Shown piece after piece: positions 3,300 to 54,995 of a stretch of 64,000 nt of DNA. Source of the DNA: Ancylobacter crimeensis (lineage in GTDB: Bacteria > Pseudomonadota > Alphaproteobacteria > Rhizobiales > Xanthobacteraceae); NCBI RefSeq assembly GCF_023016805.1, contig NZ_JALKCH010000001.1, forward strand, positions 1 to 64,000. Reading direction: 5' to 3'. The translations under genes were made by a program, and so were the position numbers. Every line of letters starts with the position of its first letter. Position 1 is the stretch's first letter. A model generated the notes under the pieces. That model was not told where the DNA came from. It made no database searches and saw nothing but the letters and a program-made list of their open reading frames with translations.

Positions 3300-3554
3300 A
3301 TGAGCGATTGCGCGTCTGACGAGTTGGCAGGGATGGTCATCTTCGATGCCGGCCATATGGGCTGTGGCGAGCTCGTGATGGTTCTTCGCATGAAACTGAA
3401 GACCATGCCCGGGCAGTTGATGCGCGTCGTCGCGCTCGACGCGGGGGCGCCCGAGGATCTGCCGGCCTGGTGCCGCATGACCCGAAACGAACTCATCCGC
3501 CACGATCCCGATTCCCACAGCTTCTGGATCCGTTCGCGGATCGACTGGAGCTGA
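3300..3554 (+). CDS. TusA-like sulfur carrier protein
   Basis: 84 residues with the TusA/SirA fold pattern. A Cys22 segment (MGCGELVMVLRMKL) leads into helix 1, then MPGQLMRVVALDAGA (the strand normally reading G..l.v.a.D.ga) and EDLPAWCRMTRNEL. TusA proteins carry sulfur as a persulfide on one cysteine. The usual CPxP motif is changed: Cys22 is kept but the prolines are not (CGEL). A second cysteine lies in AWCRMT. It is the first gene of a six-gene operon, followed by DsrE after 44 bp. The same CG-x-L type recurs in the N-terminal domain of the last gene (6521-8017), so the two probably act on the same cargo. The assignment rests on motif and spacing; the sulfur-carrier role is inferred. 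Confidence 0.7.
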   Translation: MSDCASDELAGMVIFDAGHMGCGELVMVLRMKLKTMPGQLMRVVALDAGAPEDLPAWCRMTRNELIRHDPDSHSFWIRSRIDWS

Positions 3555-3598
3555 TTTTGCCTGACACGACATCCCGAAAGTAATCGAGGAGCCTCGCA

Positions 3599-3961
3599 AT
3601 GCCCGGTAAGTTCGTCGTCTCCATCAGTTGCGCCAAGAACGACACCGACAAGGCCACGGTCGGCTTCGTCATCGCCAATGCCGCCGTTGCCTCGGACAAG
3701 GAGACGGTGGTTTTCCTGTCGATCGAGGGCACTCGACTTTCCCAGCAGGGCTATGCCGACGATATCCACGAGCAGGGCTTCGCACCCCTTGCGGAGCTGA
3801 TGGCGAATTTCGCCGCAGCCGGGGGCACGATCTATGTGTGCTCCCCCTGTTTCAAGAAACGCGGCCTCGACGAAGAGAATCTGGTGGCGGGAGCGAAGAT
3901 CGTCGGCGGCGCGAAGCTCGTCGAGTTCCTGGGCGAGGGTATCCCCTCGATCAGTTATTGA
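3599..3961 (+). CDS. DsrE family protein
   Basis: 120 residues of the DsrE/DsrF-like fold: an N-terminal FVVSISCAKNDTDKATVGF strand and loop, a central VVFLSIEGTRL, and GGTIYVCSPCFKKRGL bearing two cysteines. It ends in a KIVGGAKLVEFL helix typical of the family. DsrE proteins usually pass sulfur to or from TusA, so the pairing with the preceding TusA-like gene supports a sulfur relay. GAGGAG lies upstream of ATG 3599. The SBP gene starts 22 bp downstream, which suggests one transcript. Which cysteine is reactive cannot be told; the CSPC pair is the better candidate. Confidence 0.75.
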   Translation: MPGKFVVSISCAKNDTDKATVGFVIANAAVASDKETVVFLSIEGTRLSQQGYADDIHEQGFAPLAELMANFAAAGGTIYVCSPCFKKRGLDEENLVAGAKIVGGAKLVEFLGEGIPSISY

Positions 3962-3983
3962 TCCGGCGCGGTGGGAGCACACC

Positions 3984-4877
3984 ATGAGCTACGATCATCG
4001 CCGGTTCAGTCGCCGGACACTCCTCGCTGCCGGTGCGGGCCTCGCGGCGACGTCCCTGATCGCCCCGGCTCGCGCGCAGGATCGCAAGAAGCTGCGCTTC
4101 GGCGTCGGACCGCTGCTGCCATCGGCAGAAGACACGCGGAAAGCCTATACGCCGCTTTTCGCGCATCTCGCGAGGGAACTCGGCGCCGATTTCGATCTGG
4201 TCGCGACCACGGATTGGGCCGGCATGGCCGTGGCTATGGGATCAGGCCAGCTTGATGTCGCCTGGATGGGGCCGTGGGGCTACATCATCGCGAACAATTC
4301 CACCGGGTGTCAGGCCGTCGCGACGGTGAAATATGACGACAAGCCCACCTATCGCGCGATCATCATTGCTCGGCCGGATCTCGCCGTCTCGACATTCCCG
4401 GATGACACGAAGGGCAAGTCGATGTCTTTCGCCGATGTCGGGTCGACCTCCGGCTGGCTGATTCCGACCTACTACGCGAAGGAGGTCTGGAAGATAGATC
4501 CCAGGACCTTCTGGAACTACACGGAGGGCGCGACCCATGCGGCGAACGAGATGTCGGTCAGTGCCGGCCAGGTCGACATGGCGACCGATTTCGATCGCAA
4601 TCGAAACGCGATGATCGCCAGCGGGCGCGTGAAGGAGGATGCCAACAGGATCATCTGGACCTCGGATCCGCTGCCCAACGACGCCATCGCATTGCCGCCC
4701 GATGCCCCGCCGGAACGGGCGGAGCAGGTGCAGAAGATCCTCACCGCCATCACGCCGGAACAAGCAAAGGAACTGCTGCCCAGCCGCTACACCGGCTTCG
4801 TGGCGGCGAACCATGCCTCCTATGCGATGATCGAAAGGGCCGGAATCGCCGTTGGCAAGATCAAGCCGAAGAGCTGA
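3984..4877 (+). CDS. PhnD-type ABC substrate-binding protein
   Basis: 297 residues. The N-terminus has a twin-arginine-like signal (S9-R-R-T-L-L, hydrophobic stretch, ending RAQ), so the mature protein is periplasmic. The body matches phosphate/phosphite/phosphonate SBPs: FGVGPLLPSAEDTRKAY, SGQLDVAWMGPWGY and the anion-gripping STSG loop (residues 154-157). Known relatives bind oxyanions such as 2-aminoethylphosphonate or phosphite; the ligand here is unknown. ATG 3984 is chosen because it gives the signal peptide; longer in-frame extensions run inside dsrE. It is followed 7 bp later by the permease. Lodged between a sulfur relay and a MetE-like enzyme, it may import an organosulfur or organophosphorus compound (inference). 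Confidence 0.8.
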   Translation: MSYDHRRFSRRTLLAAGAGLAATSLIAPARAQDRKKLRFGVGPLLPSAEDTRKAYTPLFAHLARELGADFDLVATTDWAGMAVAMGSGQLDVAWMGPWGYIIANNSTGCQAVATVKYDDKPTYRAIIIARPDLAVSTFPDDTKGKSMSFADVGSTSGWLIPTYYAKEVWKIDPRTFWNYTEGATHAANEMSVSAGQVDMATDFDRNRNAMIASGRVKEDANRIIWTSDPLPNDAIALPPDAPPERAEQVQKILTAITPEQAKELLPSRYTGFVAANHASYAMIERAGIAVGKIKPKS

Positions 4878-4884
4878 GGCGGCG

Positions 4885-5721
4885 TTGGCGCGAACATCCG
4901 AGGCGCCATCGACCGCAGCCGAGCGTGCGCTCGCGCGCATCGAGGCCGAACGACGTGGCTTCTCCGCGCGCCGTATCCGACTCTGGCTGACCTGTGGCGC
5001 GATCCTCGCCTTCTATGTCGTCTCCTGGAATCTGGCGGGCATCGATCTCCAAAAGCTCGCCAGTGGCCTGCCGAAGCTAGGCCGCTGGCTGGCCAGCGCC
5101 TGGCCTCCGGATACGTCCGAACTTCCGCTTTTTGCCCTGCGGACCGCGGAGACGGTGGCGATGGCGGCGATCGGAACCACGCTGGCGACGCTGCTTGCCA
5201 TTCCGATGGCGGTGCTGGCCAGCCGTAACGTCACGCCTTGGCCGACGCTGTATTATCCGGCGCGCTGGTTCCTTAACGCGTTGCGCGGCATCGATTCTTT
5301 CGTGTTCGCGCTTCTGTTCGTGGCAGCGGTCGGCCTTGGCCCGTTCGCTGGCGTGCTCGGCATTGCGCTGCACACATGGGGCAGTGCCGCCAAGCAGTTT
5401 GCCGATCACATCGAGAATGCAGAGATGGGTCCGTTCGAAGCGGTGCGCACCACGGGAGCAGGGCACTTCACTGCCATTCTCTATGCGGTGGTCCCCGATG
5501 TCGCGCCGGTTCTGCTGTCGACGGCACTGTTCTGGTGGGAGTTCAATGTGCGCGCATCTACCGTGCTTGGCGTGGTGGGTGCAGGGGGCATCGGGCAGGA
5601 GTTGAAGAACAGCATGGACCTGCTGGATTTCCCTCGTCTCTTCACCATCATCGCACTCATTCTGGTCGTGGTCACCGTGCTGGACCAACTCTCCGGCTGG
5701 CTACGCCGGAGGCTCGCCTGA
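4885..5721 (+). CDS. PhnE-type ABC permease
   Basis: Integral membrane subunit of about 278 residues with several hydrophobic helices and the permease coupling loop (EAVRTTGAGHFTAILYAVVP) that contacts the ATPase. The ending GVVGAGGIGQELKNSMDLLDF is characteristic of PhnE proteins. I chose TTG 4885, preceded by GAGG at 5-nt spacing, over TTG 4852 inside the SBP gene. Its stop overlaps the ATG of the ATPase gene (ATGA). It would move the ligand delivered by the upstream SBP across the inner membrane. Confidence 0.75.
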   Translation: MARTSEAPSTAAERALARIEAERRGFSARRIRLWLTCGAILAFYVVSWNLAGIDLQKLASGLPKLGRWLASAWPPDTSELPLFALRTAETVAMAAIGTTLATLLAIPMAVLASRNVTPWPTLYYPARWFLNALRGIDSFVFALLFVAAVGLGPFAGVLGIALHTWGSAAKQFADHIENAEMGPFEAVRTTGAGHFTAILYAVVPDVAPVLLSTALFWWEFNVRASTVLGVVGAGGIGQELKNSMDLLDFPRLFTIIALILVVVTVLDQLSGWLRRRLA

Positions 5722-6524
5722 TGAACGAGCGGGCGCAGATCGTCTCGTCTCCGGCCTCGTCGCCGACGCATCTCGAGATCGATGGCGTGACGAAAAGCTT
5801 CCGCGGGCATGTGGCGGTGGAGGATATCAGCTTCCGGGTCGCACCGGGCGAGTTCCTCGCCGTGCTGGGGCCGAGCGGCGCTGGCAAGACCACGCTCTTT
5901 CGCTGCATGACCGGCCTTCTAGGACCTGACAGCGGCACGGTGCGCGTGGATGGCGAGGAGGTCCACGGCGTCGCCGGGCGAGCCCGGCGACGGGTTGCGG
6001 TGGTGTTTCAGCAGTTCAATCTGGTCGACCGGCTGACCGCGCTCGACAACGTCCTCGCCGGGCGGCTCGGCCACATGCCGGCGTGGCGGGCCTGGGCGCG
6101 CTGCTTCGAGCGCAGCGACCGCCTGCTGGCGCTCGATTGCCTCGATCAGGTTGGCCTGCTGGAGAAAGCCACCCAGCGGGCGGATTCCCTGTCGGGCGGA
6201 CAGCAGCAGCGCGTTGCCATCGCCCGGGCTCTGGCGCAGAAGCCGAGCATCATCATCGCGGACGAGCCGGTAGCCAGCCTCGATCCCCAGACCAGCGCCG
6301 GGGTGCTGGAGCTGTTGCGGCATATCGCCCGGTCAGAGCGCGTCAGCGTCGTCTGCAGCCTGCATCAGGTGACGCTCGCCCGGCGCTTTGCCGATCGCGT
6401 CGTCGGGCTGGTGGATGGAAGACTTGTCGTGGACGTGCCGGCGCATCGTTTCGACGAGCACATTCACAGGCAGCTTTTCGGCACGGCCGAGGGGACGGAT
6501 CCGCACACGGAGACAGCATCATGA
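5721..6524 (+). CDS. PhnC-type ABC transporter ATPase
   Basis: 267 residues with Walker A GPSGAGKT, Q-loop FQQFNL, signature LSGGQQQR, Walker B IIIADEP and a switch histidine in SLHQ. The order and the RVAVVFQQFNLVDRLTALDNVLAGRLG stretch are typical of PhnC ATPases. It starts at the ATGA overlap with the permease stop and ends in another ATGA overlap with the TusA-MetE fusion gene. Transport and enzyme are thus translationally coupled. Function in import is confident; the substrate is not. Confidence 0.85.
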   Translation: MNERAQIVSSPASSPTHLEIDGVTKSFRGHVAVEDISFRVAPGEFLAVLGPSGAGKTTLFRCMTGLLGPDSGTVRVDGEEVHGVAGRARRRVAVVFQQFNLVDRLTALDNVLAGRLGHMPAWRAWARCFERSDRLLALDCLDQVGLLEKATQRADSLSGGQQQRVAIARALAQKPSIIIADEPVASLDPQTSAGVLELLRHIARSERVSVVCSLHQVTLARRFADRVVGLVDGRLVVDVPAHRFDEHIHRQLFGTAEGTDPHTETAS

Positions 6525-8017
6525 ATCCCGTCGACGCCCACACGCTCGTGCCGGACATATCTTTCGACGGCGGGGATCTCGACTGCGGCAACGGGCTGCT
6601 TCTCCTCATCCGCAAGCACATCGACCCGCTGCCGCGCGGCGGTCTGCTGGAGATCCGCTCCACCGAGATTTCCGTCGACGAGGATCTGCCAGCCTGGTGT
6701 CGGCTGACGGGCAACGAATTCGTCTCCTGGACCAAGGTCAAGAAGCAGCGGTCCTTCCTGGTCTGCAAGGGGATGCTGGCCGAACGGGCCGCGACGCCCG
6801 CCGCCGTCGTCGTCGCGAAGGAGACGCCTTCATCGGTCCCGCGCCCGCGCATCCCTATCGAGCCTCCTCCCATCCCCGAACTCGCAGTGATGGGAATCGG
6901 CTCATGGCCGCGCCCGCGCTGGATGATCGAGGCCATGCACGCCTATGTGGAAGGGCGGCTTTCGGAGAAGGCGTTTCAGGAAACCGCCGACGATGCCGTG
7001 CGCCTTGCCATCGCTGCGCAGGAAAAGGCCGGCGTCGATGTGGTGACCGATGGCGAACAGCGGCGTGACTCCTATGCGAGCTTTGTTGCCAGCCGGCTCG
7101 ACAATTGCCAGCTCATCCCGCTCATCGACCTGTTGCCTCTCGTGGACGACCCGGCGGAATTCGAGGCGGAACTCCGTGCGCTCGACATTCCCGCCGGCGA
7201 GGTGCGCCATCCTGCCGTGTTCGGCAAGCTCTCCCGCTCGCGCCCCCTGGTCGCCCACGAGGTCGATTTCGCACGCAGCGTGACCGATCGTCCGGTGAAG
7301 GTCGCGCTGCCGGGCCCCTACCTCCTGACACGCACGATGTGGATGGAGTGCATCTCGGACCGCGCCTATGCGAGCCGGGAAGAACTCGCGGCCGATATCG
7401 TGCGCGTACTGCGCGAGGAACTTGCCGAACTGATGGATGCCGGTGCTGCGCTGGTCCAATTCGATGAACCGGTGCTTTCCGAGGTCGTGTTCGCCGGCGC
7501 CAAGAACAAGCGTTCCTTCATGTGCGGGGCGCTGTCCGAATCGCTCGGCCCGGCGCACGAACTCGCCTTTGCCCGTGATCTGCTGAATGCGGTGCTGGAC
7601 GGCGTGCCGCGCCGGCGCACGGCGCTGCATGTGTGTCGCGGCAACTGGACGCCGGACGAAAGCGTCGCGCTGGCCGGCAGCTATGGACCACTGGTCGGGA
7701 TGCTGGCGCAGGTCAAGGTCGGCGCGTATCTCCTGGAGATGTGCACGCCGCGCGCTGGCGAGGTGGACATCCTCACCGCATTGCCGCACGACGCCCGCAT
7801 CGGGGTGGGTGTGGTGAACCAGAAGGATGCGCATGTTGAAGGTATCGATCAGGTGGCCGGGCGCATCCGACATGCGATCGACCTGTTCGGCCGCGAGCGC
7901 GTCCTGCTGCATCCCGACTGCGGTTTCGCGACGTTTGCCGACAACCCGATCTGTTGCACGGGTTCGGCCCAGGACAAGCTGGCTGCCATTGCGAAGGCCG
8001 TGCAGACGTTCGGATAG
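6521..8017 (+). CDS. TusA domain fused to MetE-like catalytic domain
   Basis: 498 residues. Residues 1-85 form a TusA-like domain with Cys22 (DLDCGNGLLLL) but without CPxP, plus EDLPAWCRLTGNEF as in the first gene of the operon. After a Pro-rich linker (about 95-120), residues 125-498 match the C-terminal barrel of cobalamin-independent methionine synthase and its relatives. Zinc ligands are intact: His370 and Cys372 (HVCRGN), Glu406 (LLEMCTPRAGE) and Cys467 (LHPDCGF). MetE barrels activate a thiol on zinc for alkyl transfer; the same fold includes epoxyalkane:coenzyme M transferase. The MetE N-terminal half is absent. I infer that TusA hands a persulfide sulfur or thiol to the zinc site. No MesX (DUF1852) partner is present, so this is not the MesD type. 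Confidence 0.75.
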   Translation: MNPVDAHTLVPDISFDGGDLDCGNGLLLLIRKHIDPLPRGGLLEIRSTEISVDEDLPAWCRLTGNEFVSWTKVKKQRSFLVCKGMLAERAATPAAVVVAKETPSSVPRPRIPIEPPPIPELAVMGIGSWPRPRWMIEAMHAYVEGRLSEKAFQETADDAVRLAIAAQEKAGVDVVTDGEQRRDSYASFVASRLDNCQLIPLIDLLPLVDDPAEFEAELRALDIPAGEVRHPAVFGKLSRSRPLVAHEVDFARSVTDRPVKVALPGPYLLTRTMWMECISDRAYASREELAADIVRVLREELAELMDAGAALVQFDEPVLSEVVFAGAKNKRSFMCGALSESLGPAHELAFARDLLNAVLDGVPRRRTALHVCRGNWTPDESVALAGSYGPLVGMLAQVKVGAYLLEMCTPRAGEVDILTALPHDARIGVGVVNQKDAHVEGIDQVAGRIRHAIDLFGRERVLLHPDCGFATFADNPICCTGSAQDKLAAIAKAVQTFG

Positions 8018-8087
8018 CTGGGTGCGAGCATCTTCTGGCAACGTGTATCCGGAAGTGCGCGCAGGCGGGGCGGGCGTGATGCCGTGC

Positions 8088-8699
8088 CTATTCGGTCCAC
8101 CGGATCATCGAACGTCCGCGGGTCAGATCCGTCAGCATCCGTTCCACGTCTGGCGCCTCCGATTTCGGTGCACTCACCGACAGGGCTGCGCCGTCGTCCA
8201 TGAACGTCTGAACCGCCACCTGCACGCCCGAGAGCGCGGCCAATCTGGACTGCACCAGTGCCAGATCACTGAACGCACATGCAAACGTCCCGGATACGGT
8301 GTCGATGAGTTCCACTTTCGCAGCTTTGCGCAAGCACAGGGCCGCCGTCCCGCCATAGGCACGGATCAGACCGCCGCTGCCGAGAAGGATGCCACCGAAC
8401 CAGCGGGTCACGACGACAGCAACGTGATCGAGGCTTTGCCCGTCGATCGCGGCAAGGATCGGCTTGCCGGCGGTTCCGCCGGGTTCTCCGTCATCGTTGA
8501 AGCGGTAGTTCTGTCCCAGCCGCCATGCCCAGCAATTGTGATTGGCTGACGGATCCGACTGTGCTGCGATGAAGTCTTTGGCCGCTGCCTCGTCCGCGAC
8601 AGGACCAGCGACCGCAATGAAGCGGCTCTTCTTGATCTCTTGCTGGCATGTTGCGCGTGCGACGAGGGTAAGGCGTAGGACCATGTCCCCGTCTATCAT
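8088..8699 (-). CDS. YigZ/IMPACT family protein
   Basis: 203 residues. The IMPACT N-terminal domain shows SRFIAVAGPV, a DDGEPGGTAGKPIL segment (the family hallmark) and VVVTRWFGGILLGSGGLIRAY. A C-terminal DUF1949-like domain (residues about 135-200) follows. Family members are linked to translation control; the bacterial role is poorly defined. An alternative start, ATG 8684, would begin at MVLRLTL and fits relatives well. It is convergent with the operon to its left. Confidence 0.85.
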   Translation of the reverse strand: MIDGDMVLRLTLVARATCQQEIKKSRFIAVAGPVADEAAAKDFIAAQSDPSANHNCWAWRLGQNYRFNDDGEPGGTAGKPILAAIDGQSLDHVAVVVTRWFGGILLGSGGLIRAYGGTAALCLRKAAKVELIDTVSGTFACAFSDLALVQSRLAALSGVQVAVQTFMDDGAALSVSAPKSEAPDVERMLTDLTRGRSMIRWTE

Positions 8700-8833
8700 G
8701 CGATCGGCGTGGAATCTCCCCCGGCAATGGGCGTTGCCAGGCGTGGAGGCCCGAAAGCAGGTGAGCGGGGACTTGCCCCGGCGCGTGATAGGGGCATCCT
8801 TCGTTTCGAAGTCGGGTTGATCGAGACATTCCG

Positions 8834-8853
8834 ATATAAAGATGTCCTTATAT
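8834..8853. promoter_or_regulatory. Candidate SahR/ArsR-type methionine operator
   Basis: ATATAAAGATGTCCTTATAT is a 20-bp imperfect palindrome with one mismatched pair of positions per arm. It resembles the ATATAAAGATATCTTTATAT-type sites that, from memory, ArsR-family regulators (SahR class) use upstream of methionine-cycle genes in proteobacteria. It ends 4 bp before the candidate -35 element of the metE leader. It is AT-rich in a GC-rich setting. The regulator is not encoded in the window. Confidence 0.4.
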
Positions 8854-8857
8854 TATA

Positions 8858-8886
8858 TTGACGCGCGGCCCGTATCGCTGCATCCT
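8858..8886 (+). promoter_or_regulatory. Candidate promoter of the metE leader
   Basis: TTGACG (8858-8863) with a weak -10-like CATCCT (8881-8886) at 17 bp. It would start transcription just before the cobalamin aptamer and next to the palindrome at 8834-8853. The -10 element is poor, so the position is tentative. Confidence 0.3.
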
Positions 8887-8888
8887 GC

Positions 8889-9060
8889 GCGTGTCACGGT
8901 CTCCGGCCTCGCGCCGGAGCTAAGAGGGAATCCGGTGTGAAGCCGGAGCTGCCCCCGCAACTGTCAGCGGTGAGCATAGGTCCATTTCGCGTCACTGGGG
9001 CGATAGCTCCGGGAAGGCCGGACCGAAGCAACGACCCGCAAGCCAGGAGACCTGCCGCGA
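8889..9060 (+). promoter_or_regulatory. Cobalamin (B12) riboswitch
   Basis: The region carries the conserved aptamer blocks in order: GGGAATCCGGTGTGAAGCCG, then GCTGCCCCCGCAACTGT with the following GTCAGCGG, and finally the B12-box-like GCAAGCCAGGAGACCTGCC. It sits upstream of metE, the classical target. When cobalamin is available MetH replaces MetE, so the RNA is expected to switch metE off on B12 binding. Exact ends are estimated. Confidence 0.92.
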
Positions 9061-9105
9061 CAACATAATCGTCCCTGGGCGGGGTGTCCCGGTGGTGCGT
9101 TCGCG

Positions 9106-9175
9106 CGTCCACCGGCTTTGCGTCCGGTGGACGGGCTTATGCGTCCGCTCGGCCTTTGCCCCCATATCATTGGGG
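9106..9175 (+). promoter_or_regulatory. Riboswitch expression platform hairpins
   Basis: Two stems lie between the aptamer and the metE ATG. Stem 1 pairs 9106-9115 with 9124-9133 (10 bp, perfect). Stem 2 pairs CCCC at about 9160-9163 with GGGG at 9172-9175, and this GGGG is the only SD-like stretch before ATG 9184. Neither stem is followed by a strong T run. Stem 2 suggests control by masking the ribosome site (inference). Confidence 0.45.
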
Positions 9176-9183
9176 TTAGCCGA

Positions 9184-11547
9184 ATGACTTCTCCGATCAT
9201 CGCCGGCACCGTGCCGGTCTCGACCCTCGGCACGCCGCGTATCGGACCGCGGCGCGAGCTGAAGGCCGCTCTTGAATCCTACTGGTCCGGCCGGAGCGAT
9301 GCCGCGGCGCTGCTCGACACCTGCGCCCGGCTGCGCGCCGCCAACTGGGCGCGACAGGCTTCGCTGGGCATCGCCAATATCCCCTCCAACGACTTCTCGC
9401 TCTACGACCATGTGCTCGACACGGCAGTGATGGTCGGCGCCGTTCCCTCCGTCTACGGCGCAAATGAAGGGTCGGTCGGGCTTGATACGTACTTCGCCAT
9501 GGCGCGCGGCAGCACGGGCGATGTGGCCACCTGCGCCCACGGGCATGCCCATGACAATGGCGCGGGCGTGCCTGCGCTCGAGATGACCAAGTGGTTCGAC
9601 ACGAATTATCACTTCATGGTGCCGGAGCTTGAGCGCGGCCAGCGGTTCCGTCTTGCTTCCAGCAAGCCGGTGGATGAATATCGGGAGGCCGCCGCACTCG
9701 GCTATCGGACCCGGCCGGTGCTGCTGGGACCAGTGACCTTCCTCACCCTCGCCAAATCGCGGGATCCCGGCTTCGATCCGGTGAGCCTCATCGGAGACCT
9801 GCTGCCGATCTATGGCGAGGTCTTGCGCCGGCTCGCGGCGAGCGGCGCGACCTGGGTGCAGATGGACGAGCCCTGCCTTGCACTCGACCTGAATGCCGTC
9901 ACGCAAGCGGCGCTGCGCGAGGCCTATGGCTTCTTCGCCCATGCCCTGCCGCAGATTCAAATCATGCTCACCAGCTATTTCGGCGGGCTCGGCGGCAATC
10001 GAGACCTTGCGCTGTCTTTGCCAGTGGCGGGGCTGCACCTCGATCTGATCCGCGCGCAGGACCAGCTCGACGACGTCGTCGCACAAGCCCGGCCGGGCCT
10101 GGTGTTGTCGCTCGGCGTCATCGACGGGCGCAATATCTGGCGCGCCGATCTCTCTCGCCTGCTCGATCGCCTGGAGCCGGTGCTACGCCGGCGTGGCACC
10201 GACCATGTCGAGATTGCTCCCTCCTGCTCGCTGCTGCATGTGCCGATCGACGTCGAACAAGAAGCGGACCTCGATCCCGAGGTAAAAAACTGGCTCGCCT
10301 TTGCGGTGCAGAAGATAGGGGAGCTCACGACCCTCGCAACCGCCCTGTCATATGGCCGCGCCGCGGTCGAGGAGCGCCTCGCCGCATCGGATGCTGTCGT
10401 TGCTGCGCGCAAGGCGTCCGCAAAGGTTCACAATGCCGCGGTCACGGCACGGCTCGCCGGCGTCACACCGGAGATGACCCGACGTGCCAGCCCCTTCGCG
10501 GAGCGGCGGTTGGCGCAGGGGCGTCGTCTGTCGTTGCCTTTGCTGCCGACCACAACCATCGGCTCCTTCCCGCAGACCGGCGAGGTGCGCAAGGCCCGCG
10601 CCGCCTATGGCAAAGGCGCGCTCGACTCTGCCGCCTATGAGGCCTTCGTGAAGGAGGAGACCGCACGCACCGTGCGCTGGCAGGACGAGATCGGGCTCGA
10701 CGTGCTGGTGCATGGGGAGTTCGAGCGCAACGACATGGTGCAGTATTTTGCCGAGCAACTCGATGGCTTCGCCTTCACGAAGCATGGCTGGGTGCAGAGC
10801 TATGGCTCGCGCTATGTGCGCCCGCCGATCCTGTTCGGCGACGTCGCCCGTCCGCGGCCGATGACGGTGGCGTGGTGGCGCTATGCCCGAAGCCTCACAG
10901 ACAAGCCGATGAAAGGCATGCTGACCGGGCCTGTCACCATCCTCAACTGGTCGTTCGTGCGGGACGACGTGGCGCGCAGCACTGTCAGCCGCCAGATTGC
11001 ACTCGCCATCCGCGACGAGGTGCAGGATCTCCAAGCGGCGGGCGCCGCGATGATCCAGATCGACGAGGCGGCGATCCGCGAGGGGCTGCCGCTGCGCCCG
11101 GCGGAATGGCAGGCCTATCTCGACTGGGCGGTGGAGAGCTTCCGGCTCTGCGCCTCCGGGGTCAAGGACGAGACCCAGATCCACACCCACATGTGCTACT
11201 CGGAGTTCAACGACATCATCGTTTCCATCGCCGCAATGGATGCCGATGTCATCTCCATCGAGACCTCGCGTTCGAAGATGGAGCTGCTCGGCGCCTTCGT
11301 CGAGGATCACTACCCGAACGAAATCGGACCGGGTGTCTATGACATCCATTCTCCCCGCGTGCCATCGGTGGAGGAGATGACGGAACTACTGGAGCGGGCA
11401 CTGGACCGGATTGCGCCGGAACAGCTCTGGGTCAATCCCGATTGCGGGCTGAAGACGCGGCGCTGGGAGGAAGTGCGCCCGGCGCTCGTAAACATGGTGG
11501 CTGCGGCGACAGGCCTCCGCCGTCGTCTCGCGAAAGCCGCGGAATGA
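9184..11547 (+). CDS. metE: Cobalamin-independent methionine synthase MetE
   Basis: 787 residues, full length for MetE. It transfers the methyl group of 5-methyl-tetrahydropteroyl-triglutamate to homocysteine. The N-terminal barrel begins [19 protein letters not shown]; the C-terminal barrel begins around [12 protein letters not shown]. Zinc-site motifs are visible: HTHMCYSEF (His, Cys), [12 protein letters not shown] (Glu) and [10 protein letters not shown] (Cys). ATG 9184 is used because relatives start near MTSPI; an upstream GTG-type extension to 9118 would enter the riboswitch platform. The next gene overlaps the stop (ATGA). Regulation by the upstream B12 riboswitch is very likely. Confidence 0.97.
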
Positions 11548-12293
11548 GCGGGGAGCACAGTGCCGGGGCGTGCGTGATCGACATCGTCTTCCCCGGCGCC
11601 ACCAACCATCACGGCACGCTGTTCGGTGGCGCGGCGCTTGCTCTCATGGATCGGGCAGCCTTCATCGCGGCGGCCCGGCATGGCCGTGTCGATTTCGTCA
11701 CTGCGTCCTGCGAACGCATTGACTTCATTGCTCCCGCGCGGCTCGGCGATATCGTCGAAACGACCGCGCGGGTGATACGCGCCGGGCGCCGCTCGCTCGG
11801 CGTGGCAGTGGAACTCGTGGCGGAGGCGCCGCTGACCGGTGAGCGGCGGCGCTGCACCAGCGGCGTGTTCAACATGGTGGCGGCGGTAACATCCGTCACC
11901 ATGCCTCCGGTGCCTGAGACCGAGCGAGCAAGTCCGGACAGCCTAAGCATGGTCGATCTCGTCATGCCGGAGCAGACCAGCCACTATGGCAGCCTCTATG
12001 GCGGCAGCGCCCTCGCGCTGATGGCCAAGGCTGCCTTCGTGGTCGCCACGCGGTGCAGTCGGCAGGCGGTCGTCCTGGCGTCGTCCGGACGGGTCGATTT
12101 CCTGCATGAAATCCGCCCCGGCCAGGTGGTCGAGATCGAGGCGTCCCTTTTGCGCGAGGGGTGCAGCTCCATGACGGTGGAGACGCGGCTGTGGTCGGAG
12201 CTGCTGGCGACCGGTGAACGTCGTCTGTGTGGAACGGGTGCGTTCGTCAACGTCGCCGTCGATGCGGAGCACCGGCCGGTGAGGTGGAGATAA
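11544..12293 (+). CDS. Double-hotdog acyl-CoA thioesterase
   Basis: 249 residues with two tandem hotdog domains. Domain 1 has [24 protein letters not shown] and domain 2 has [24 protein letters not shown], each with the acyl-CoA thioesterase pattern (N/S-H-x-G-x-L-x-G-G). Such enzymes hydrolyse acyl-CoA to free acid and CoA. The start ATG overlaps the metE stop, so it is translationally coupled to metE and presumably under the same riboswitch. The reason for this pairing is not apparent. Confidence 0.85.
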
Positions 12294-12568
12294 GCCGCAT
12301 GTCCACAGGAGCCTTGCTTGACTTTCCAATACGGAATGATCAGTTCTTGGCACATGATGACCGAACCGCTCATGTTTCGTTTTGCACAGGCGTGTCCCAT
12401 CGCGGGACGCTGAGCCCCCGCCCGGTCGCGTCGCCCCGGCTGAGGGGCTCCTGAGGCGGCCTCTGTCTAACCCGGCAGATCGTGCCGCGATCCGCGACAG
12501 CACACACATTCCCCACTGCACTCCGGCACGCGTCTCGCGTCGCCGCTCTCTTGCCTCAGGAGGTCATC

Positions 12569-13024
12569 ATGGCCCTTGCCCGGCGCAAGCCTGCCATCGC
12601 CATAACCCGTCACGATCACGAGATGCTGTCACGGCTTGCCGATTCCTACGCCGCTCGTGATGCCGAGCTGGCTGACGAACTCTATACCGAGCTTGACCGG
12701 GCCCGGATCGTGGGCGACGGGTCGGCCCGCAACGTCGTTCGCATCGGCTCGGCGTTACGTTTCACCTCCGATGCCGGGGAGGACCGTGTCGTGAAGCTGG
12801 TTTTGCCGGGCGAGGCGGATATTTCCGCCGGCAAAGTGTCGGTCATGACACCCATCGGCATTGCGCTGATCGGCCTGTCGGCGGGGCAGTCGATGGACTG
12901 GACCGCGCGCGATGGACGGCGTCACAAGCTGACCGTCGTCAGCGTGGAAGCCCCCGATGTAGTGGTGGAGCCTGCTGCGCGACCGATGGCGGTTACCGGC
13001 GAACAGCAGGCATCGCAGAGCTGA
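12569..13024 (+). CDS. rnk: Rnk-type nucleoside diphosphate kinase regulator
   Basis: 151 residues with a C-terminal GreA/GreB-like domain (VVKLVLPGEADISAGKVSVMTPIGIALIGLSAGQSMDW, in family order) and a short helical N-terminus. Rnk proteins bind RNA polymerase and influence NDP kinase levels. ATG 12569 is chosen over 12482 because CAGGAGG lies just upstream and the extension is unlike the family. It is monocistronic as far as can be seen. Confidence 0.85.
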   Translation: MALARRKPAIAITRHDHEMLSRLADSYAARDAELADELYTELDRARIVGDGSARNVVRIGSALRFTSDAGEDRVVKLVLPGEADISAGKVSVMTPIGIALIGLSAGQSMDWTARDGRRHKLTVVSVEAPDVVVEPAARPMAVTGEQQASQS

Positions 13025-13071
13025 GCTCGCCCGGCTTCCGTTCTCCCTTTGAACAGGAAGTGTGAATGGTT

Positions 13072-15132
13072 TCAGTGGCGAAAGAACAGGTCGCGCATGT
13101 GCTGCGCGAAACGATCCGGCGCGTAGGCGGCCGCCCGTTCGCTTCCGGCGCGCCCGATGGCGATGCGCCGCTCTTCGCCGTCGGGTATCAGCAGGGCGCG
13201 CGTGCGTTCAACGAGGTCAGGCAGGCTCTCATAGAGAAGGCCGTTGACGCCATCCTCGATAATTTCGCGCGCGCCGCCGGCCCTGAATGCGAATGTCGCG
13301 GATCCGGCGGCCATGGCCTCGACGATGGCGATGCCGAAATGCTCCGCTTTCTCGGGGGACGCGGTGAGATCGACGCCAAGGCCGGTGCCATGCCAGTAGA
13401 TGGCGGCATCGCGATACAGGTGTGCCAGTTCGTCGGCCGAGCAGTTGACGTGGAAGACGATGGGCAGGCCTTCCGCGCTTTCTTCGAGGCGGCGCAGATA
13501 GTCCATGTGCTCGATACCGGGCGTGGAGGAGCCGGCAAGGTGCAGCTCCCCCCCAATCGTGCCGTCTGCGATCAGAGCGCGGAACGCCTCTATGAGCAGG
13601 TCCTGCTGTTTTGAGTGCCCCCCGACGAAGAAGCGGCCGACGGAGAGGATCATGGGCTTCTTCGTTCGCGCGTCGCCCCCGAACTGTGGCACGGGCGGTG
13701 CGATGACGTGGATGGGATAAGGTCGGCTCCCGGACGCTTGTAGCGCCTGTTCGACCGCCTGGGCCGTGAAGCCCGAATTGACGATGAAACGCTCATATCC
13801 ATCGAGTTCCGCCAGCCCTGGCCCCGGATACGGGAAGGGGAACTGGCAGTGGAACAGGTTGCGCGCCGCACGCGCCGATGTTGGCGGGTGAAGGTGGTTG
13901 CCCATCGTCAGCATGACTTCGAAAGGCCCGAGATCGTCGATCCGATCGAGCGTGACGGTTTGACAGGCATCCAGATCGATATCGAACAGCCGCCCGATCT
14001 GTCGCAGGCGCATCCGACTATAGGGATGAGGCGTGGCCAGGATGACCTGCCAGCGTTCGGAAAGCACCGCGGCCGTGGTGCAGAGATAACGCTCGCCGCC
14101 GCCCGGCGTGAGGGCATAGGGCGTATAGACCAGCGCGCGCGACGTATCAGACGGCAGTCGACGCACGGAGGGATCGCCGATGACCGCAGCACGGATCGTC
14201 TGTTGCTCGTCGCTGGAGCGATGCCGGAGATAGGCACCCCATCGGGCGCGAAGCTTGGCGCGATTAAGGGCGTTCGCCATGTCGTCAGGAGGCGTGCGCT
14301 CCCCCGAGCGGATGGCAGTCATTGCCGGGAGCAGCCGCACCGATTTTCCAAGCGCAGCGAGTTTGAGGCAGAGATCGATGTCCTCGCAGCCTTCAGGTTC
14401 AAAGGCGAGGTCGAAGCCATGAACGGCGGCGAAGTCCTCTCGGCGGACCAGCAGACAGGAAGCGGAGACGTAGTCCAGGGAGCGCGACGGCAGCAGAGCG
14501 AGGGGCGGAGCCCATGGCCCGGCCAGATGACGGGACGGCTCTCCCGTACCATCCAGCATCGCTCCGGCCTGCTCGATCGTTCCGTCGGCGGCGAGGAGGA
14601 TAGGCCCGGCCGCCGCTGCCTCCGGATGAGCGTCGAGCTCGGCCATCAGCCCTTCGAGACAGCGAGGTGAAAGCAGAACGTCCGTGTCCAGAAAGCAGAC
14701 GAACCGGCCCTGTGCCTGTTCAGCGAGGATGTTCCTTGCCTCGCCGCGATAGCGGTCGACGCCGAGCGGAAGGATCCGCGCTCTGCCGCGACCTTCATTC
14801 AGCAGAGCGAGGTCGTCCGGGGCGCTGCCATTGTCGGCGATCAGAATCTCGGAAGGCGGGCCAGCGTCGTTCGCTTCAATGTGCTCGATGCAGAGGAGCG
14901 TGTTCGGTGCATCATTCCGGCTGACGAGGAGGATGGAGACCTCCGGCTTCGTCTCGATCGGTAGATTGCCGGGCGCGGAAGGCGCGGCAACGACCGGCGT
15001 TGGGCTGGGCATGGTACGGCGGCACTCATCACGACAGGGCCGTAGGACGGCGTCCCACACCGTTCCATATAGCCCGGCCAATCGTTCCGTGCAGCCGCCG
15101 AGACGACGCAGGACGGGAATGTGACCGGGCAT
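13072..15132 (-). CDS. Two-domain glycosyltransferase (GT2 + GT4)
   Basis: 686 residues. Residues about 60-300 form a GT2 domain (VSILLVSRNDAPNTLLCIEHI; DxD-like FLDTDVLL; late EDIDLCLKLA). Residues about 340-686 form a GT-B/GT4 domain (LTPGGGERYL; MILSVGRFF; acceptor/donor motif EKAEHFGIAIVEAMAAG). The protein probably adds two sugars in succession to a surface glycan. I chose ATG 15132 because the longer reading overlaps the efflux gene and looks non-native. It starts 34 bp after the RND pump stop on the same strand, so it may be the third gene of that operon. Confidence 0.85.
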   Translation of the reverse strand: MPGHIPVLRRLGGCTERLAGLYGTVWDAVLRPCRDECRRTMPSPTPVVAAPSAPGNLPIETKPEVSILLVSRNDAPNTLLCIEHIEANDAGPPSEILIADNGSAPDDLALLNEGRGRARILPLGVDRYRGEARNILAEQAQGRFVCFLDTDVLLSPRCLEGLMAELDAHPEAAAAGPILLAADGTIEQAGAMLDGTGEPSRHLAGPWAPPLALLPSRSLDYVSASCLLVRREDFAAVHGFDLAFEPEGCEDIDLCLKLAALGKSVRLLPAMTAIRSGERTPPDDMANALNRAKLRARWGAYLRHRSSDEQQTIRAAVIGDPSVRRLPSDTSRALVYTPYALTPGGGERYLCTTAAVLSERWQVILATPHPYSRMRLRQIGRLFDIDLDACQTVTLDRIDDLGPFEVMLTMGNHLHPPTSARAARNLFHCQFPFPYPGPGLAELDGYERFIVNSGFTAQAVEQALQASGSRPYPIHVIAPPVPQFGGDARTKKPMILSVGRFFVGGHSKQQDLLIEAFRALIADGTIGGELHLAGSSTPGIEHMDYLRRLEESAEGLPIVFHVNCSADELAHLYRDAAIYWHGTGLGVDLTASPEKAEHFGIAIVEAMAAGSATFAFRAGGAREIIEDGVNGLLYESLPDLVERTRALLIPDGEERRIAIGRAGSERAAAYAPDRFAQHMRDLFFRH

Positions 15133-54321: not shown

Positions 54322-54744
54322 TCAGCGCCCGGTTTTCCAAGGGTCGATGACCTCGACATTGGCGGCGTCGAACGCGCTGGTGTCGCGTGTGGCGACGACG
54401 AAGCCCTTGGCGGCCGCGATCGCGGCGATGTAACCGTCGGGGGTCGGGAAGCCTTTCCCGGCCGTTCGGGCTTTGACGGCGAGATTCGCGTAATGTCGCG
54501 CGGCATCTATGTCGAACGGCAGGATGCGATCGGTGAACAACTCCATCACCCCCTCGATAGCATCGGTGAGCCTGTCCTTGCGCTTGCCGTCGGGGAGCGC
54601 GCCGATACCGAACATCAGTTCGGCGATGGTGATGCTGGAGAGAAAGAGCGTTTCCGCCGCCTGCTCGTCGAGCCAGGCCCGCATGGCTTCGTCGGGCGCG
54701 GGTTTCATGGCCTCCGATACGACATTGGTGTCGAGGAGGATCAT
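54322..54744 (-). CDS. VapC-type PIN-domain toxin
   Basis: 140 residues. PIN-domain acidic residues are in place: Asp5 (MILLDTNVVSE), Glu42 (TIAELMFG), Asp103 (FPTPDGYIAAIA) and Asp121 (ATRDTSAF). It resembles FitB/VapC ribonucleases that cut tRNA or other RNA. It overlaps its antitoxin gene by 4 bp. It looks intact. Confidence 0.9.
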   Translation of the reverse strand: MILLDTNVVSEAMKPAPDEAMRAWLDEQAAETLFLSSITIAELMFGIGALPDGKRKDRLTDAIEGVMELFTDRILPFDIDAARHYANLAVKARTAGKGFPTPDGYIAAIAAAKGFVVATRDTSAFDAANVEVIDPWKTGR

Positions 54745-54995
54745 TCGAAGCTCATCGGCTTGGCGAGCGTCTTGTCGCGCGCCTGGTCGAGGGCGTCGAC
54801 GTCCTCATTGGTGAGGCCGAGGCGGCGGCTGCATTCCGCGAGCGCCGTGCCAAGCCGAAGGCGCGTGTCGGGACGAACAGCCGCTTCGAGGATATCGCGC
54901 ATCTCAGCCTCGGTACTGCGGCCGTGCTGGGCGGCGCGCACCTTGAGCGCGCGGTGCGTCGCGTCGGACAGGTTCCGGATCGTGACGGCTGGCAT
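54741..54995 (-). CDS. FitA/VapB-like antitoxin
   Basis: 84 residues. The N-terminal ribbon-helix-helix (VTIRNLSDATHRALKVRAAQHGRSTEAEMRDIL) binds DNA, and the C-terminal segment should wrap the PIN toxin. CAGGAGG precedes ATG 54995. TGATATCTATGATAGCA at about 55017-55033, with two TGATA half-sites, is a likely autoregulatory operator. Confidence 0.88.
   Translation of the reverse strand: MPAVTIRNLSDATHRALKVRAAQHGRSTEAEMRDILEAAVRPDTRLRLGTALAECSRRLGLTNEDVDALDQARDKTLAKPMSFE

Follow-up and report, generated by a model that had tools for sequence, protein, structure and literature searches.

Parts of the gene set described here are known from several other systems (cited by PMC number, for those parts of the papers that bear on this locus). 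TusA-type and DsrE-type domains occur together in YedF (TIGR03527), which with YedE is linked to the selenophosphate synthetase SelD by gene neighbourhood and by occurrence; the selenium candidate genes of the same papers include YedE, YedF and SirA-like proteins (PMC5322559, PMC2432076). Methyltransferases of the UroD/MetE superfamily have been tied to the selenocysteine (Sec) machinery in the type I mlp gene clusters (MGCs), corrinoid methyltransferases of anaerobes with a proposed role in regaining selenium from methyl-selenides (PMC10418091). MesA, MesB, MesC and MesD, the core methionine synthases, have the catalytic half of MetE with its zinc and homocysteine positions but lack the folate-binding half. 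Uptake of hypophosphite (HtxBCDE) and phosphite (PtxABC) involves the same families of substrate-binding protein (SBP), permease and ATPase as are encountered here. According to two reviews, prokaryotes are not known to have a specific high-affinity transporter for selenium (PMC9312934, PMC13188914). Members of these families are encoded by six genes at positions 3300-8017 of a 64,000-nucleotide stretch of Ancylobacter crimeensis DNA (contig NZ_JALKCH010000001.1, positions 1 to 64,000; the whole stretch is called the window): a tusA-like gene, a dsrE-like gene, three genes for an ATP-binding cassette (ABC) importer and a gene in which a TusA domain is fused to a MetE core. With a probability of roughly three in four this operon is a selenium acquisition and delivery system supplying SelD, and it probably represents a system for selenium uptake and hand-over that has so far gone undescribed. 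That selenium supply is the job of the module seems highly probable. The case is built on sequence comparison, in which the gene set is conserved, is associated with SelD and, in some loci, is linked to sel clusters.

All six genes lie on the + strand, with intergenic gaps of 44, 22 and 7 bp followed by overlaps of 1 and 4 bp, an arrangement as in one operon. The original prediction, of six genes most of which overlap or lie within 50 bp of each other, was confirmed gene by gene. The first gene (3300-3554, 84 aa; a start at 3333, giving 73 aa, is possible as well) encodes a TusA-like protein scoring 32.1 bits with PF01206 (cut-off 28.6), and the second (3599-3961, 120 aa) a DsrE-like protein (PF02635, 58.4 bits, 1e-15). 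The importer consists of a periplasmic SBP of the HtxB-like class (3984-4877; PF12974, 2e-50), a PhnE-type permease with a TTG start (4885-5721; TIGR01097, 271.1 bits, cut-off 216.7) and a PhnC-type ATPase (5721-6524; TIGR02315, 282.6 bits, cut-off 266.1). It had been called PhnDEC-type, a label that holds for the permease and the ATPase, which pass the PhnE and PhnC cut-offs, but not for the SBP, which is nearer to HtxB than to PhnD. The fusion gene (6521-8017, 498 aa; PF01717, 3e-30) closes the operon. A full-length MetE is encoded 1.2 kb further downstream (9184-11547), so the fusion is not the sole MetE-type enzyme of the cell; a search of the host genome found no second close copy of the fusion.

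In the fusion, a TusA domain (residues ~13-84) is followed by a linker and the zinc barrel of MetE (~120-498), as had been read from the sequence originally. The TusA part scores poorly with its Pfam model (22.3 bits, below the cut-off of 28.6) but shares 38% identity with the product of the first gene (E 2e-7). In an AlphaFold2 model with a mean pLDDT of 81, a linker of low confidence connects a TusA-like domain to a barrel; among solved structures, the closest to this model are MetE and the MesD-type protein 3rpd. The latter is also the best sequence match in the PDB and is called a MesD in PMC7857596. Although the fusion matches NCBIfam models for methionine synthase, its scores fall well short of their cut-offs (TIGR01371, 87.9 bits versus 929.95), and its TusA domain replaces the N-terminal half of MetE. 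Residues C22, C60, H370, C372, E406, C467, S128, E179, D315, W274, C277 and C335 are invariant in all 44 fusions aligned. In Escherichia coli MetE, zinc is bound by H641, C643, E665 and C726, and the amino-acid moiety of homocysteine by S433, E484 and D599 (PMC7857596); all seven positions are identical throughout these 44 sequences. The residue pattern of the core methionine synthases MesA-D, HCEC/D for zinc with S, E/Q and D for homocysteine, is present at 7/7 positions, which speaks for a functional site of the core methionine synthase type. The fusion differs from MesA-D in its N-terminal TusA domain, its selenium context and the invariant C277 and C335, which in pairwise alignments are absent at those places from 28/28 and 21/28 more distant MetE-like proteins of the window's order, respectively. 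MetE H707 is a lysine in 44/44 fusions and in 21/28 of the distant relatives.

The two putative relay proteins are likewise conserved. C22, G23 and C58 are invariant in 31 aligned TusA sequences, 30 of them from free-standing TusA proteins and one from the fusion itself; in the product of the first gene CG stands where TusA has its CPxP motif, the second cysteine being retained. In the DsrE-like protein the cysteines of a CSPC motif, C81 and C84, are invariant in 21/21 sequences aligned. In YedF, by comparison, both domains reside in a single protein with the motifs CPXP and CGXC (PMC5322559), whereas the operon has TusA and DsrE as separate genes with CG and CSPC and, beyond these, encodes an importer and a MetE-type enzyme. 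Among the NCBIfam hits of the operon proteins at E up to 0.1, no match to the YedF model TIGR03527 was found. The MGCs differ in having corrinoid proteins and MtaA-like enzymes where the operon has a MetE core fused to TusA; no corrinoid protein was noticed in the gene lists of the loci, although no search was aimed at one.

When genome contigs were scanned for the fusion, 224 relatives emerged. The best 80 of these (best-segment identity 59-87%) were kept; adding the window and two plasmids of Paracoccus gave a set of 83 loci. According to the record titles, from which taxonomy and isolate status were taken, the best 80 relatives range over alpha- and betaproteobacteria, one deltaproteobacterium, Rokubacteria, Planctomycetota, Chloroflexota and Obscuribacterales. 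The order tusA, dsrE, fusion on a single strand was found in 75/83 loci, which is far above chance expectation; the loci without it are L059, L060, L061, L074, L089, L090, L100 and L106, of which L059, L089 and L100 start near a contig end. The original prediction was to fall if the genes did not occur together elsewhere. They do, and its notion of a dedicated set of genes, in which a relay for chalcogens and an importer of oxyanion type are combined with a zinc site like that of MetE, is supported by this conservation and by the zinc and homocysteine positions.

The companions of this core vary. Importer genes accompany it in 31/83 loci. Of the 27 of these that have a dsrE nearby, 25 carry the importer genes between dsrE and the fusion, and in L093 and L109 they precede tusA. 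The importer is not obligatory: in 52/83 loci none is present on the fetched stretch, some of these stretches being ended by contig ends. C6, an unnamed membrane-like protein, and/or C4, an unnamed secreted protein, occur in 29/83 loci, and both kinds of companion are combined with each other in two only (L038, L105). C6 (for example L035:4526-5071) is small, with a CxxC within a hydrophobic stretch, and C4 (for example L038:5517-7136) is predicted to be beta-rich with a C-terminal helix; neither has a Pfam or usable NCBIfam match. These varying companions leave tusA-dsrE-fusion as the minimal core. The importer and the pair C6-C4 appear to be alternative ways of feeding this core, C4 with C6 perhaps forming a second feeder. 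A second DsrE-type protein, C5, is encoded nearby in 14/83 loci.

An indication of function comes from the genomes as a whole. SelD, scored by TIGR00476 over its curated cut-off, was found in 48/50 fusion genomes and in 25/28 further ones, 73/78 together, two of the matches in the set of 28 being fragments (90 and 184 positions). All 31 isolates with the fusion were positive, as were 42/47 metagenome-assembled genomes (MAGs). SelD was present in 2/14 well-known genomes taken as controls and in 23/297 genomes of the window's order. A true fusion orthologue was detected in two of these 297, both SelD positive (hypergeometric 0.006); distant MetE-like matches were seen in 49 other genomes of the sample. 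When all fusion genomes placed in the order are taken (L034-L038, L040, L047, L049, L050, L056, L060, L061, L066, L071, L102 and L105, with L061 being genome G274 of the sample), SelD is found in 16/16 versus 21/295 others (Fisher 5e-17). As a separate observation, SelD is fused to a pyridine nucleotide-disulfide oxidoreductase domain in L175:7836-10103 and G274:C8:87010-87921 (TIGR03169, run on L175). A SelD inside a long frame (743-1027 aa) occurs in 8/23 SelD genomes of the order, six of which have an HtxB-like SBP.

The uses to which selenium is put differ among the carriers of the module. SelA scored over its cut-off in 44/50 fusion genomes, SelU in 19/50 and at least one of the two in 47/50, and G328, G329 and G336 combine SelU and SelD in the absence of SelA. 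This distribution implies that the module follows SelD and not one particular selenium use, which places it upstream, in selenium supply. The association with SelD and SelA/SelU gives no support to the earlier assignment of the module to sulfur, phosphonate or coenzyme M (CoM) metabolism. It might still be a sulfur module that merely tracks selenoprotein users, for example supplying the sulfur with which the molybdenum cofactor in formate dehydrogenase is sulfurated, or making or recycling a thiol as originally proposed. TusA and DsrE are known as sulfur carriers in described systems (PMC4175335), and one copy of the module adjoins formate dehydrogenase genes (see below). However, the three genomes with SelU and SelD lacking SelA indicate that the link is to SelD, not to a selenoprotein formate dehydrogenase. 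Furthermore, the pocket class of the importer tracks SelD even in genomes without the fusion. A sulfur function is therefore considered very improbable.

In some loci the module is physically linked to sel genes. In L050 the order is tusA, dsrE, C6, C4, fusion, selD, with the module directly before selD; beyond it, on the opposite strand, lie genes for a GcvH-like lipoyl carrier, C5 and a lipoate ligase-like protein, then selB, selA, fdhE and formate dehydrogenase gamma. In a Paracoccus plasmid record the fusion is directly followed by genes annotated as selA and trxB, and a cysteine desulfurase is encoded upstream of tusA on the opposite strand. L055 has a selB, scoring over cut-off, near the fusion. 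The GcvH-like lipoyl carrier and C5 near selB (L050:11054-12679 and L055:12190-13052, both on the - strand; carrier and ligase of L050 assigned by model) are reminiscent of the carriers that bind lipoate in the sHdr sulfur pathway, the setting here being a selenium cluster; of this pair of loci only L050 has the lipoate ligase-like protein. In the host itself, selD adjoins formate dehydrogenase genes, beyond which come SelA (588 bits) and the first part of SelB, with 180.6 bits over the 109 residues fetched (L177:8459-18000, equal to G000:C22). The open reading frame (ORF) of the formate dehydrogenase alpha subunit holds an in-frame TGA, and the host, judged from these genes, looks like a selenocysteine user.

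The importer offers a partly independent view. Among solved proteins the SBP is closest to HtxB (5me4, E 5e-77), followed by PtxB (7e-21) and PhnD (1.5e-19), and it falls below the cut-offs of both the PhnD model (TIGR03431, 161.7 bits versus 261.1) and the putative selenate SBP model (TIGR04553, 80.1 bits versus 250). Compared to HtxB, residues W52, R178 and D206 are kept, whereas N128S, F158H and M176F are changed. HtxB N128 and F158 close the third-oxygen site (PMC5700983), and the exchanges N128S, F158H and M176F/Y mark the 'HtxB-like' proteins of PMC6629693, whose pocket is larger in modelling and to which no ligand is assigned there. The operon-linked SBPs belong to this class. The pocket W78, S154-T155-S156, H185, F/Y203, R205 and D233 is found in 23/23 aligned, which were drawn from the 27 loci with an SBP match by omitting two near copies and two others, and S154 and H185 thus stand invariably in place of N128 and F158 of HtxB.

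In the order of the window, an SBP matching at E 1e-70 or better is present in 14/297 genomes. The window-type pocket occurs in eight of the genomes, seven of which are SelD positive, the exception being G101, with no SelD over cut-off. A different pocket, with A, W, T and E at four positions, occurs in seven genomes, none with SelD over cut-off; G101 holds both. SelD thus accompanies the window-type pocket in 7/8 genomes versus 16/289 others (Fisher 5e-8, uncorrected for kinship, with G170, G252 and G142 belonging to one genus). Five of the seven SelD-positive genomes (G167, G170, G252, G142, G129) have no fusion orthologue, and this is a partly independent hint that the importer concerns selenium. 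The ligand could be selenite or methylseleninate, or the arsenic species considered below.

Several observations speak against a selenium system feeding SelD. Five fusion genomes, all MAGs, have no SelD match (L065, L076, L088, L092, L103). The genomes are not independent of each other, and the Fisher values overstate the association. In the family of the L078 genome SelD is present in 167/195 genomes and the fusion in seven, all SelD positive; with a base rate of 86% the association is uninformative there. The module is missing from most SelD genomes (21/23 in the order, 160/167 in the L078 family), so that it would be an accessory selenium route. SelA, SelB or SelD lie on the fetched stretch in 6/83 loci only (L050, L053, L055, L069, L114, L115), four of them from Paracoccus, and none of the three was found within the window, the copies of the host residing on another contig. 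Neither importer nor C4/C6 is present locally in 25/83 loci. The seven zinc and homocysteine positions of the fusion are identical in 28/28 of the more distant MetE-like proteins from the order as well, and consequently do not single out a selenium reaction. Finally, the same-pocket importer adjoins a phosphoesterase/radical-SAM protein in G170, G252, G142 and G129, and in the first three also lies beside glycosyltransferases that NCBI labels arsenosugar biosynthesis.

These neighbours keep an arsenic oxyanion among the possible ligands. The importer could carry arsenite or a methylated arsenical, or else phosphite or hypophosphite, its place in the operon being incidental or protective. The SBPs in the four genomes just named are 53-59% identical, the arsenosugar-type glycosyltransferases (TIGR04282/TIGR04283) were assigned by model in G170 and by look in G252 and G142, and G101 has the same pocket with no SelD over cut-off. 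In addition, the solved relatives of the SBP include binders of phosphite and hypophosphite, AioX and ArrX. Against this, the four genomes are all SelD positive, the exchanges N128S, F158H and M176F enlarge the pocket in modelling (PMC6629693), and the importer joins the selenium-linked core in 31/83 loci. An arsenic or phosphorus ligand is accordingly regarded as unlikely, somewhat less so than a sulfur function. The same-pocket importer loci are L169 (~7710-13193), L170 (~6019-11496), L171 (~7048-12552) and L172 (~6562-12860). Their phosphoesterase/radical-SAM protein is weak kin of the Rv1681 family and of ArsS; L169-L171 additionally have the TIGR04282/TIGR04283-type glycosyltransferases and L172 a DUF3179 protein. 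In all four genomes SelD lies inside a long frame (743-869 aa).

If the operon does supply SelD with selenium, the following mechanism may be envisaged. The ABC importer would bring in a small selenium oxyanion, and the stand-alone TusA and DsrE would carry selenium as a cysteine-bound perselenide (Cys-S-Se). The fusion would act as a B12- and folate-independent 'core' MetE with a non-folate methyl donor, namely methyl-selenium bound to the cysteine of its own TusA domain (C22-S-Se-CH3) and formed from methylselenol or methylseleninate. Homocysteine bound at the zinc would take the methyl group to give methionine and leave a perselenide on TusA, from where DsrE and the second TusA could relay the selenium towards SelD. 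The net effect would be recovery of selenium from methylated forms. This chemistry was suggested by the absence of the folate-methyl-donor domain of MetE and the presence of a chalcogen carrier in its place, and it is the simplest route that uses every kept part. Demethylation of methyl-selenium by the fusion is nevertheless put forward tentatively, with odds clearly below even. The main competing explanation is a selenium carrier free of methyl chemistry, in which the zinc site would only bind and shield selenide or a perselenide from the TusA domain, for example after reduction of selenite by thioredoxin, and pass it to SelD, homocysteine being no substrate. The SelD and sel-cluster evidence fits this equally. 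The invariant C277 and C335 suggest additional chalcogen-handling thiols in the barrel, and trxB and a cysteine desulfurase adjoin the Paracoccus copy. Identity at S433, E484 and D599 in 44/44 fusions would, however, be odd in a protein that does not bind an amino acid, and the carrier alternative appears rather improbable, though less so than an arsenic or phosphorus ligand.

For the full proposal, that the operon encodes the first dedicated high-affinity bacterial selenium importer together with a new B12-independent methyl-selenium demethylase and its relay to SelD, considerable doubt is in order, slightly more than for the demethylation itself. The terms MetE in PMC5322559 and methionine synthase and phosphonate in PMC2432076 gave counts of zero. 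Among the papers listed in literature searches, at the level of titles and the starts of abstracts and with the selenoprotein-neighbourhood papers of Haft and co-workers outside its scope, no report of this gene set or of a link between TusA::MetE and selenium was found.

Some further neighbours were observed. A secreted-looking transglutaminase-like protein is encoded upstream of the module in L077:7014-8171, L085:584-1675, L088:6495-7598 and L114:6492-7574, in hosts from Planctomycetota, a deltaproteobacterium and Paracoccus (PF01841, run on L077 and L114). Two Chloroflexota loci, L107 and L113, have the same neighbours over the ~7 kb that precede the fusion and the 6 kb that follow it, in the order FAD-dependent oxidoreductase (DAO), Rieske/LigXa-like oxygenase, GFO/IDH/MocA oxidoreductase, tusA-dsrE-fusion and transport permeases (models run on L107). 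Elsewhere in the window, at 54322-54995 on the - strand, adjacent short ORFs encode a FitA-like antitoxin and a PIN-domain protein, likely a toxin-antitoxin pair.

The operon provides a concrete set of importer and carrier proteins that is testable in culturable bacteria, and a probable setting in which to place the 'HtxB-like' binding proteins, to which PMC6629693 assigns no ligand. It is of relevance to annotation, as the Paracoccus record labels the fusion methionine synthase, and to selenium cycling, where it may constitute a B12-free counterpart to the methyl-selenium salvage of anaerobes (PMC10418091).

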